A stretch of 64,000 bases of DNA from Chloroflexota bacterium (GTDB lineage Bacteria; Chloroflexota; Dehalococcoidia; JACQUO01). Location of the stretch: NCBI GenBank assembly GCA_016210205.1, contig JACQUO010000023.1, positions 129,788-193,787 of the forward strand, written 5' to 3'. The position numbers and the translations under genes were made by a program. The notes below the pieces were generated by a model. The model searched no databases and was not told the DNA's origin. It saw only the letters and a list, made by a program, of their open reading frames with translations. Positions 30,935 to 35,886 of the stretch are shown here, one piece after another. Numbering within the stretch: the stretch's first letter is position 1; every line of letters begins with the position of its first letter.

Positions 30935-31744
30935 TTAGGGGGCTCGCGGCGGCTTGGTCTTTCCCGAAAGGATGGCCGCCACCTGGTCCCGATGGGCTAT
31001 CTCCCAGACCGCGCCGTCCTTGACCAGGTACTTCCAGGTCAGCCTGGGCGTCTGGGCCAAGTCGGCGGGGGTGGTGGAGAGCAGGGTCTCCTCGTCCGCC
31101 TCTGCCTCCACTTCGGGGTTGAAGATTACCTCCTCCAGGCTGGCCTCGGCTAACTTTCCCCCGTCCTTGAGATAACCCCTCACCCCTTCGTAATAGGCCC
31201 ACTGGACGAAGCCGCTGCAGATATAGGAGTCCACCCGCAGGGCCCGGGCCAGTCGGGGTCGCCGCACCCGGCGCAGCCCCTCGGGCTTGAAGCGCAGGAA
31301 GCCATAGACAAACCCCAGGACGAACTGCCGCATAAGCCAGCGGCCGAGGGTGAGTATCATCCCGTAGTCGTATTTGGCATCAATCTCCTGGAGAGCCAGG
31401 CCACGAATATAGCGCTGCAGGTCTTCCTGAAACCAGGGGGCCTCCAGGCTGAGCACCGCCACATCGGTCCTCCGGCCCGAGCCCAGGAAACGGGAGATGT
31501 TGTGGATGTCGATACCCTCGCCGCCCGACTCAATGATGAAGGTTTGCTGATAGCCTTTGTCCGTGTCCCGCAGCACATAGACCAGCGCGGCGTGGTTCCA
31601 GTATGACTTGGTTCCGAAGCGGATAAGCCGCCCGATAAGGCTGCCCTTGGAGTGGGTCAGGAGGATATCCACCCTTTTCAAGCGCCCCTCTTCCACCAGA
31701 GCCCTCATAGCATCGCGGGACAGAAAAGCCGCCTCCCTGGCCAT
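30935..31744 (-). CDS. YiiX/YaeF-like permuted papain-fold hydrolase
   Basis: A 269-residue protein with features of the permuted NlpC/P60 (YiiX/YebB) hydrolases: VDILLTHSKGSLIGRLIRFG followed by SYWNHAALVY, where the active-site His precedes the Cys, and later DSYICSGFVQWAYYEG with the nucleophile Cys. The order His-then-Cys is the hallmark of the permuted fold. Members are proposed amidases or peptidases on lipids or cell wall. ATG 31744 with GGGAGGTG replaces the long track start at 31918. It converges with the CoA-transferase operon. Confidence 0.68.
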   Translation of the reverse strand: MAREAAFLSRDAMRALVEEGRLKRVDILLTHSKGSLIGRLIRFGTKSYWNHAALVYVLRDTDKGYQQTFIIESGGEGIDIHNISRFLGSGRRTDVAVLSLEAPWFQEDLQRYIRGLALQEIDAKYDYGMILTLGRWLMRQFVLGFVYGFLRFKPEGLRRVRRPRLARALRVDSYICSGFVQWAYYEGVRGYLKDGGKLAEASLEEVIFNPEVEAEADEETLLSTTPADLAQTPRLTWKYLVKDGAVWEIAHRDQVAAILSGKTKPPRAP

Positions 31745-31893
31745 GGAAACACCTCCCGACGGAAGTCCCCCCAGTCTAGCAGGCCAGCTTGAAGGGGACA
31801 ACCTCCGCTGTCCTGCTAGCCGCCCGCACTTGGGCGGCCCCTGATGACCAAGGTGTGCTGGCCTAACTGCCCCGCATTCTAGCCCCCCGGCCG

Positions 31894-31923
31894 TTGACAA
31901 AGCTGACCGCCGAGCCATAAACT
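31894..31923 (+). promoter_or_regulatory. promoter for corrinoid methyltransferase-like gene
   Basis: TTGACA (31894-31899), 18 bp, TAAACT (31918-31923). The gap 31745-31967 otherwise shows nothing. Confidence 0.6.
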
Positions 31924-32986: not shown

Positions 32987-33015
32987 TTGCCAAAAGTCTT
33001 TTCATGTGTTATTAT
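32987..33015 (+). promoter_or_regulatory. promoter for channel-like gene
   Basis: TTGCCA (32987-32992), 17 bp, TATTAT (33010-33015), inside an AT-rich stretch. Confidence 0.6.
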
Positions 33016-33053
33016 GCTGACTCGTGACGGAATAGAACTCTCGGAGGGGCCCT

Positions 33054-33944
33054 ATGAGCAGCTCTACCCCTCTCATCGATGGGCTGGCGATGTACACCGC
33101 GGGCCGTGGGCCACTAAGGCAGGCCAACTATGAGTCCGGGCGCACCCGTCCACCCGAGCTACCGAATCCCTACCCCTGGCGTCCTCCCCAGAGTTGGCAA
33201 GGGCTACCCTCGAGCCAAGTAACGCGACGGAGGCGATTCTCCGCCCCGCCGGTGGAAGATGAAAGCCCCAATGCCGCCTGGCAGGCCCCAGCCACAACCT
33301 ACCGCAGCCGCTGGAACGGCTTCATCGAAGAGGACCGAACGGCCCACCCCGCCAAGACCGCCTCAAGGGCCTGGGGCAGCCTGGACCAGGCCCCCGCCCT
33401 GTGGAGCGATTCCCCTCCCACCCCATCGCCTCGGCCCGTTGCCCTGGCGGCCACGGCGGTTCTGGAGCAGCCGCTAATCCCGGCAGCCCTCCTGGGCCGA
33501 CCTCGCCTCATCCCCACTGTTTATCCTCCTTCCCTCACCCGAGAGTGGGAACCGGAGGAGAAAGCGGAATCGCCCACGCCACCAGAGGTGAGTTTGCCCG
33601 TTGCCAAGGCAGCTGGAAAGCCTGCCTCTGCTTTCAGGCTCTTCCAGCTTGATGAAAGCCTCCTCAATATTCTGGTCTTCGCTTCCGTGGTGGTGGTGGT
33701 CTTCGGCTTCCTGTACATGTTCTCTGAAAGCGTGGGCAGCTACACCAATAGCCCCTTCGGCGTCCAAGACTACTTCCTCTTCAGCATACGCACCTTACTG
33801 ACCATGTCCATGCCCGACATGGGCCCCCTCAATTCCTTCGGGAGGCTGTTGAACTCTCTGGAGGGCACCTTCGGCATGTTTTCCCTGGCGCTGGTTAGCT
33901 TCATCCTGGGCCGCAACCTGAGCTCCAGCCAAGAGGCCAGCTAA
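33054..33944 (+). CDS. two-TM potassium-channel-like protein with degenerate filter and long disordered N-terminus
   Basis: A 296-residue protein. The first 195 or so residues are Pro/Arg-rich and look unstructured. The C-terminal 100 residues have an ion-channel layout: TM1 (LLNILVFASVVVVVFGFLYMF), a loop, a pore-helix-like FGVQDYFLFSIRTLLTM, then PDMGPLNSFGRLLNSLEGTFG running into TM2 (MFSLALVSFILGR). The T-x-G-Y-G-D filter of Ion_trans_2 channels is replaced by TMSMPDMGP (about residues 250-258), while the flanking D..P....GR.L...E...G pattern is kept. It may conduct other ions, be a non-conducting relative, or be a sensor. ATG 33054 follows GGAGGGG. Confidence 0.62.
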   Translation: MSSSTPLIDGLAMYTAGRGPLRQANYESGRTRPPELPNPYPWRPPQSWQGLPSSQVTRRRRFSAPPVEDESPNAAWQAPATTYRSRWNGFIEEDRTAHPAKTASRAWGSLDQAPALWSDSPPTPSPRPVALAATAVLEQPLIPAALLGRPRLIPTVYPPSLTREWEPEEKAESPTPPEVSLPVAKAAGKPASAFRLFQLDESLLNILVFASVVVVVFGFLYMFSESVGSYTNSPFGVQDYFLFSIRTLLTMSMPDMGPLNSFGRLLNSLEGTFGMFSLALVSFILGRNLSSSQEAS

Positions 33945-33973: not shown

Positions 33974-34011
33974 CAAGCAAAGGCTCGCCTCCTGGGGTGA
34001 GCCTTTGCTTG
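33974..34011. terminator. bidirectional terminator hairpin
   Basis: A perfect 13-bp stem CAAGCAAAGGCTC / GAGCCTTTGCTTG with a 12-nt loop lies between two convergent genes. T-runs are weak on both sides. Confidence 0.7.
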
Positions 34012-34032: not shown

Positions 34033-35886
34033 CTAGGGGGCATATCCGGCGGTGGCAGTGTGGGCTGATGACATGGCGACCGATATGGGGTTGCCGGCGA
34101 CCGCAGCGCCATCCACAGACCATCCCTGGAAGTTATACACCACCCCCGACTTGGTGATGGAAGCAGGGGCCGTAAGGGTGACGGCGCTGCCGCTGTCATA
34201 CCAGCTTTCCCCGGCTATGACGCCCAGGCCAGGGGGATTGGTAACCACTTTAAGGTAAAACTGCGTTTTCCAACTGGCCGTGGCGGTCTTGGCGCTATTC
34301 ATCTTGATGGCATTGGAATAGTGGTAATAGGTCCCGCTGGCAGCACCGCTCCAGGCAACGAAGACATAACGAGTTCCTGGGTCGCCGCTGACAGGGTCGC
34401 TGCTGACAGTATCGGTATTGAGCGTAGCCCGGGCCTCTTCTTCCCCCTCAACGAACCAACCCTCATCAGTGGCATGACCGGTAGCGGGGTCAAACGAGCG
34501 CTTTTCTCGGCCCGGCGTACCGTAGGGCGAGACCACGGTCAGGTAATACTGGCGCTCTAAAGTGGCAGTGTACTGGACGAAGTAGTCAGGGGTGGTTACG
34601 GTATGGCGCTGGGCCCCGCCGTCGCTCCAACCGGCGAAGACATAGCGTACGCCCGCCGCAGGGCTCTGGAGAGACTCCACATAGAGGGTATGGGTGGTGT
34701 TCTGCTCCCACACCAGGTTTACGGGGGCGCTAAGAATTTCGCCATCCACAATGACTTTGGTGCCGCTGCCGATGTTGGTGGCCACCCGCACGGCTACGGC
34801 AGGGGGAGCTTTGTACTGGGCAGAGATGGTATGGGGGCCATCTATCTTAACGCTGATGGCGCCGCTCACCGAAGGAGGAGCGCCATCCAACGACCATCCC
34901 TTAAATGTATAGCTGATGTTGTTGAGGGAATAGGTAGTCGGCGCCGTGACGCGAACGGAGGCATTCTCATCTTGCCAGCCCTGCCCAGTAAGGCCGGCGA
35001 TGCCGGGGGGGGCCGAGAGCACATTGAGGTAATACTGCTGCTTCCATAAGGCCATCACGGCGCGCGGCCCGGCCATGACGATGGGGGTTGACTTCTTGTA
35101 ATCGGTCCCCGTGGCCCACCCGTCCCACTTCACGAAGGCTTTTTGGGCCTTGTCCCCAGTAATGACAGCCCCTTCCTTAAGGCCCGCGTAGGCAGTGCTA
35201 CCTTGGTCATACCAGCCCTGGCCCAGGGCCTCCCCCACCTCCGTGGTGACGGTGAGCTCATATTGCTTCGTAAACTTTGCCTCATAGGTTGCAGGCTCTG
35301 CGGGGCGAGCCTCACGACTCTTCTCCACCACCCCATCACTCCAGCCGCTAAAAACATACCGCGCCCCCGGCTCTCGGGAGACAGGCACCGCGACTTCAAG
35401 GGTGTGTCGGGAGCCCGGGGACCAAAATCCCTGGAACGGGGTGGTGATGGCTTGGCCGTCAACAATGACCGGGCTCCCCGGCCCCAGGTTGGAGGTGACG
35501 AAGACCAGCACTTGCTTCGCCGATGGGGGTTGAGCTTCCAGACCAGGGGTAGATGGCGCGGCGGAAGATGCCGCCCCGGGGGTAGTTGCCCCAGGGGGAG
35601 TCGCTGCCACCGACGTGGGAGTGGGGGGCGGGGTGGTCCGGGAGCGCAAGGGGAACGGGAAAGCCCCAGCTGGTGTCGGCGTGGGCGTCGGGACGAGTGT
35701 AGGTATAGGAGTGAGCGGCAGGCGTGTCGCTGCTGGCGGGGCAAAGGTGGCAGTGGGCGGGGCGCCACTGCAGACGCTGCCAGCCAGGGCCAAGAGGGCA
35801 ACCAGGAACGAAAGCCCTTTTATGGCCGATGGTATTCCAAGCATGACAGCTACAAGATACCATTTTATCCCTGCCTGGTAAAGCAC
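34033..35886 (-). CDS. secreted protein with InlB-B/bacterial-repeat-like modules
   Basis: A 617-residue predicted exported protein. An N-terminal hydrophobic signal (FLVALLALAGSVCSGA) is followed by a Pro/Thr-rich linker (about residues 45-120) and then at least six beta-rich modules with recurring VFSGWSDG, FVKWDGWATG, FKGWSLDG, VFAGWSDG, FVAWSGAAS and FQGWSVDG and aromatic strands such as QYYLTVVSP and QFYLKVVTNPPG. These resemble divergent InlB B-repeat/Listeria-Bacteroides-repeat domains of surface proteins. The lipobox is not canonical (GSVC), so lipidation is doubtful. GTG 35886 has GGAAGGGAG upstream. A role in adhesion or envelope structure is inferred. Confidence 0.72.
   Translation of the reverse strand: MLYQAGIKWYLVAVMLGIPSAIKGLSFLVALLALAGSVCSGAPPTATFAPPAATRLPLTPIPTLVPTPTPTPAGAFPFPLRSRTTPPPTPTSVAATPPGATTPGAASSAAPSTPGLEAQPPSAKQVLVFVTSNLGPGSPVIVDGQAITTPFQGFWSPGSRHTLEVAVPVSREPGARYVFSGWSDGVVEKSREARPAEPATYEAKFTKQYELTVTTEVGEALGQGWYDQGSTAYAGLKEGAVITGDKAQKAFVKWDGWATGTDYKKSTPIVMAGPRAVMALWKQQYYLNVLSAPPGIAGLTGQGWQDENASVRVTAPTTYSLNNISYTFKGWSLDGAPPSVSGAISVKIDGPHTISAQYKAPPAVAVRVATNIGSGTKVIVDGEILSAPVNLVWEQNTTHTLYVESLQSPAAGVRYVFAGWSDGGAQRHTVTTPDYFVQYTATLERQYYLTVVSPYGTPGREKRSFDPATGHATDEGWFVEGEEEARATLNTDTVSSDPVSGDPGTRYVFVAWSGAASGTYYHYSNAIKMNSAKTATASWKTQFYLKVVTNPPGLGVIAGESWYDSGSAVTLTAPASITKSGVVYNFQGWSVDGAAVAGNPISVAMSSAHTATAGYAP

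Follow-up and report, generated by a model that had tools for sequence, protein, structure and literature searches.

A channel-like 2TM pore protein with a degenerate filter position from a Dehalococcoidia bacterium

The gene at 33054-33944 of the window (the whole stretch of 64,000 nucleotides that was analysed, from a Chloroflexota bacterium of the class Dehalococcoidia) encodes a 296-aa protein whose C-terminal TM1-pore helix-TM2 domain is, as judged by sequence comparison, a real homolog of K+-channel pores, with TMSMPD at residues 250-255 in place of the T-x-G-[YFL]-G-D filter of K+-selective channels. The protein is placed by the same comparisons as an outlying member of a family that joins pentapeptide repeats to a two-transmembrane (2TM) pore, within which the filter appears to have decayed stepwise. 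The reading favoured here, which we regard as modestly probable, is that of a 2TM module of K+-channel fold, probably tetrameric, that has lost K+ selection, would be non-conducting or at most weakly selective, and carries a disordered tail.

The gene, its signals, and its neighbours

The source assembly (1.42-Mb, 34 contigs) has relatives at class level only. Features of the gene and its product are as follows, with window coordinates, strand, and basis.

32987..33015, plus strand: promoter-like TTGCCA-17-TATTAT, with TG ahead of the second hexamer (consensus match only)
33043..33049, plus strand: Shine-Dalgarno-like GGAGGGG just 5' of ATG 33054 (sequence)
33054..33944, plus strand: open reading frame of the 296-aa pore-like membrane protein (open frame, codon bias)
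33054..33638, plus strand: residues 1-195, Pro/Ala/Ser/Arg-rich N-terminus, predicted to be disordered (composition, model)
33654..33734, plus strand: residues 201-227, TM1 (hydropathy, model helix 201-227)
33762..33806, plus strand: residues 237-251, pore helix (model, alignment to channel pore helices)
33801..33827, plus strand: residues 250-258, filter position TMSMPD then MGP, replacing TVGYGDxxP (alignments)
33837..33938, plus strand: residues 262-295, TM2, including GRLLNSLEGTFG (model, alignment)
33976..34009, no strand: inverted repeat AGCAAAGGCTCGCC / GGTGAGCCTTTGCT between convergent genes, possibly a shared terminator (by eye)

The open reading frame is an ordinary gene, with a credible start and matching codon bias. 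A stop codon lies six codons 5' of the ATG; codon log-odds are -0.03 in the N-terminal half, against -0.21 or worse in the five other frames (a modest margin), and +0.35 in the C-terminal half, against -0.01 or worse in the five other frames (a strong margin). The promoter-like site matches 10 of 12 consensus positions and lies 38 nt upstream of the gene; three such sites were observed in the region, with 0.3 expected from shuffles. The inverted repeat is absent from the sites given by the terminator scan.

The pore gene appears monocistronic. On one side it is flanked by a gene like those of pterin-binding methyltransferases, on the other by a convergent gene for an InlB-repeat protein. The product of this convergent gene (34033-35886, minus strand), 617 aa long and probably exported, combines InlB-type B-repeats (PF18998) with a stretch rich in Pro and Thr. 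The 327-aa protein encoded at 30935-31918 (minus strand) is without a Pfam match at E 0.001; visual inspection suggests a resemblance to a permuted papain-like (YiiX/NlpC-type) enzyme (HSKGSLIGRLIRFGTKSYWNHAALV). No gene context is conserved around the pore gene, the flanks in the relatives' loci L029 and L030 encoding other things.

Layout of the protein and homology of its pore domain

Residues 1-195 contain 33 Pro, 26 Ala, 19 Ser, and 18 Arg, and in the full-length AlphaFold monomer model they have nearly no secondary structure and a pLDDT of about 31-46; the Pro/Arg-rich, disordered N-terminus of about 195 residues described in an earlier note on this DNA is thus borne out. Hydropathy peaks at 2.48 over residues 204-222 (TM1), and the modelled helices (201-227, 237-251, and 262-295) stand in the order TM1-pore helix-TM2. 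The monomer models give the right topology at low confidence (mean pLDDT 46 for the full length, 58 for the domain only), because only 3 sequences were usable. Foldseek with the domain-only model ranked the pores of KcsA, NaK, and KCNQ first in the PDB, but at E 0.3 or more (best, KcsA at E 0.3); these matches, mostly channel pores without significance, were left out of the evidence for homology.

The C-terminal 101 aa score 19.6 bits (E 8.5e-4) against Pfam Ion_trans_2 (PF07885), under the cut-off of 22.5 bits. Among PDB entries, phmmer matched pores of KirBac, Shaker, and Kv channels (E about 0.002), TMSMPD aligning opposite TVGYGD, and nearly all PDB matches were tetrameric K+-channel pores. 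When a profile of the protein and its two nearest relatives was compared by hhalign, it matched in register at 96.5% with canonical channels and at 97.6% with the TLGLGD-type group; five column-shuffled controls gave 0.1-2.2%, and the channel match is therefore far beyond chance. The channel-like layout proposed in the earlier note is upheld by these matches and by the order of the model helices, and so, by the alignments, is its statement that the TVGYGD filter has been replaced; of the relation to Ion_trans_2 that it drew, the score of the single sequence fell short and the profile-profile match proved real. It would be extremely improbable for two ordinary TM helices and a loop to resemble a channel by chance: the sub-threshold Ion_trans_2 score and a fold-search E of just 0.3 would fit such a resemblance, but the in-register match at 96-98% is not reproduced by shuffled controls, and the relatives form a graded series of which several exceed the Pfam cut-off (L009, 22.9 bits; L032, 39.5 bits; L084, 38.7 bits).

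Relatives and decay of the filter

The nearest relative is a 253-residue open frame of genome G039, from another order of the same class, in which the two-part layout of disordered N-terminus and pore is kept and the filter region reads TASSFDLAP; it is about 40% identical to the window protein over the pore domain. Next comes a protein of genome G024 with pentapeptide repeats and a pore, its filter region reading GVSFTDLAP. Pfam found pentapeptide repeats in neither the window protein nor the G039 protein, and homology between the N-termini of these two was undetectable, 128 of 1000 shuffles scoring as high. Wider searches through 393 genomes of the class and 400 of the phylum added further proteins in which pentapeptide repeats, verified by Pfam, are joined to a 2TM pore at the C-terminus; a scan of genome contigs gave only two relatives that were already known, and the viral contigs searched gave none. 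The family spans Chloroflexota, Nostoc, and haloarchaea, the annotation in the latter two being either pentapeptide-repeat protein or potassium channel family protein, and most other members of the degenerate-filter clade have pentapeptide repeats. One member (L084:918-2306, plus strand; filter TIGFPD) is encoded on plasmid pNsp_i of Nostoc sp. ATCC 53789, near a tyrosine recombinase, so the family can be plasmid-borne. A short pentapeptide-repeat ORF (L030:2343-2861, plus strand) lies directly 5' of the G024 gene and is perhaps a truncated duplicate.

In a tree built from 57 pore domains (about 100 columns), the degenerate-filter proteins form one group (support 97/89; 92/62 without the filter columns), within which the window protein pairs with that of G039 (100/98; 100/95 without the filter columns) and the G024 protein joins next (99/87; 98/91 without the filter columns). 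The deeper forks are uncertain because there are only about 100 columns; a single clade of all pentapeptide groups was not rejected (p-AU 0.66).

Filters in this family grade from intact to absent. Haloarchaeal members have TIGYGD and TLGLGD, and Nostoc TIGFPD; the series continues through TIGFSQ, TIGFNT, TLSFNG, TVTFVR, TFNLAR, GVSFTD/TVSFTD, and TASSFD to TMSMPD. In the degenerate clade, a small one of 10 sequences and about 100 columns, filter identity is 0.29 against 0.34 for the rest of the domain; in canonical channels at similar pair divergence the values are 0.89 and 0.28. Ranked by conservation among 81 six-column windows, the filter comes 40th in the degenerate clade and second in canonical channels. 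Since the filter sequence is not conserved in this branch, the window protein is probably not a K+ channel. Around the filter, the starting T is kept in 9/10 members of the clade, G or S at the first Gly in 8/10, and the P after the filter in 9/10; the Asp of the filter is kept in 3/10, namely the closest three (D255 in the window protein). Some pore constraint therefore remains, given the conserved T, small residue, and P and the Asp of the closest three, and this counts against the favoured reading. Only S..D[LM][AG]P is shared by these three at the filter, within the full pattern [TG]xSxxD[LM][AG]P; the channel-like pattern around the filter that the earlier note had marked is conserved among relatives, and its MSMPD is not, even in the nearest.

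The lack of constraint on filter and N-terminus, together with a nearest relative whose pore domain shares only about 40% identity, could also mark a decaying gene whose pore is out of use. We hold this to be very improbable: the 296-aa frame is intact and shows codon bias, a start site and a promoter-like site are present, and G039, in another order, retains a protein built of the same two parts.

TVGYG is a textbook example of an invariant functional motif, and the graded series found in this prokaryotic family provides natural steps for asking what a K+-channel fold does without K+ selection. For proteins of this architecture, an annotation as 'ion channel' or 'potassium channel family' should be read with caution, as it may not mean K+ conduction. 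A search of openly accessible papers, among which most subscription journals are missing, brought up no account of 2TM pores joined to pentapeptide repeats or of their filters.

Possible functions and comparison with known pores

Going by established channel biochemistry, Pro for the second filter Gly and Ser for the first would be incompatible with the usual carbonyl filter. In the favoured reading, the pore-like domains would still come together as membrane tetramers, and the backbone-carbonyl K+ filter could no longer form, because Ser and Pro occupy positions that need Gly. The module would then be a membrane anchor, non-conducting or at most weakly selective, displaying its long disordered tail on what is presumably the cytoplasmic side, where relatives hold the pentapeptide domain. 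Of the three functions suggested in the earlier note, a non-conducting relative probably fits best; a gas or lipid sensor is set aside, no binding domain or supporting context having been found; and a channel of new selectivity is weakened, since MSMPD gives way to TASSFD and GVSFTD in the nearest relatives and the filter columns have changed at least as fast as the remainder of the domain. A weakly selective cation pore may still be formed, because all three of the closest proteins retain the S, D, and P of the filter.

Those same invariant residues, with the intact TM1-pore-TM2 frame, lend some weight to a conducting cation channel of altered selectivity, in which Ser252 hydroxyls and Asp255 carboxylates, arranged in rings, would make a wider filter, non-K+-selective or divalent-preferring. 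There is a precedent in CASTOR, which has AD(S/A)GNHA instead of TVGYG and is yet Ca2+ selective, its D265N mutant being inactive (PMC6697748). The CASTOR filter is highly conserved among orthologues, however, whereas residues around S and D vary among the three nearest proteins here, and the Asp is found in only 3/10 of the clade; we regard such a channel as rather unlikely. A narrower form, confined to the three closest proteins, would make [TG]xSxxD[LM][AG]P a new filter of a conducting pore, with Ser/Asp rings giving a non-K+-like selectivity and the disordered cytoplasmic tail acting as gate; this is plainly unlikely.

The same genome also encodes a canonical 2TM channel (G000:C24, L061), whose filter is TVGYGE and whose tail is TrkA-like, and K+-channel function therefore need not rest on the window protein. 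The latter could instead act as a modulatory subunit, joined in heteromers to a subunit that does have a filter, for instance this TrkA-fused channel. The two genes are, however, on separate contigs (C19, C24), the pore gene is apparently monocistronic, and the tree places the two pore domains very far apart; a heteromer is accordingly judged very unlikely, though marginally less so than a decaying gene.

The favoured module of K+-channel fold can be set beside several known systems. With KcsA, MthK, and KirBac (PF07885) the window protein shares TM1-pore helix-TM2, the Thr that starts the filter, the D and P that follow, and the G/hydrophobic pattern of TM2; it differs from them in having no GYG/GFG filter, in having no RCK or Kir regulatory domain, and in scoring below the Pfam cut-off. 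NaK retains much of the TVG.G filter, whereas the window protein has lost both filter Gly positions. The fold is shared with NaK-type non-selective channels, as is an altered filter without strict K+ selection (PMC5818664). CASTOR, POLLUX, and DMI1, Ca2+ channels of the plant nucleus, likewise have a TVGYG-less K+-channel-like pore and an acidic residue in the filter region; they possess a highly conserved replaced filter and an RCK gating ring, neither of which is found in the window protein (PMC6697748). Also comparable are the pentapeptide 2TM pores of Nostoc and haloarchaea, with a homologous C-terminal pore domain and many members with degenerate filters; unlike these, the window and G039 proteins lack the repeats and the GYGERP linker and have a disordered N-terminus instead.

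Two further observations were made on pores of this kind. A second pentapeptide protein of the same genome (L063:865-2319, minus strand; G000:C25; Pentapeptide_3, E 1.2e-19) ends in a two-helix region with a weak pore-profile match (19.6 bits) and no recognisable filter. In a Chloroflexota clade of pentapeptide-repeat proteins (support 100/100; n=22: L035, L036, L042, L045, L048, L053, L058, L064-L070, L072, L073, L075, L076, L078, L079, L081, L082), a strictly conserved SFHGRGF(F)P occupies the filter position: H, G, R, G, and F are present in 22/22, filter identity is 0.88, and the filter ranks 4/81 windows. Ion_trans_2 is not called by Pfam in this clade, which matches GYG-type pentapeptide pores at 98.6% and canonical channels directly at only 0.3%. 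With its conserved Arg, this motif is a better candidate than the window protein for a truly new filter.
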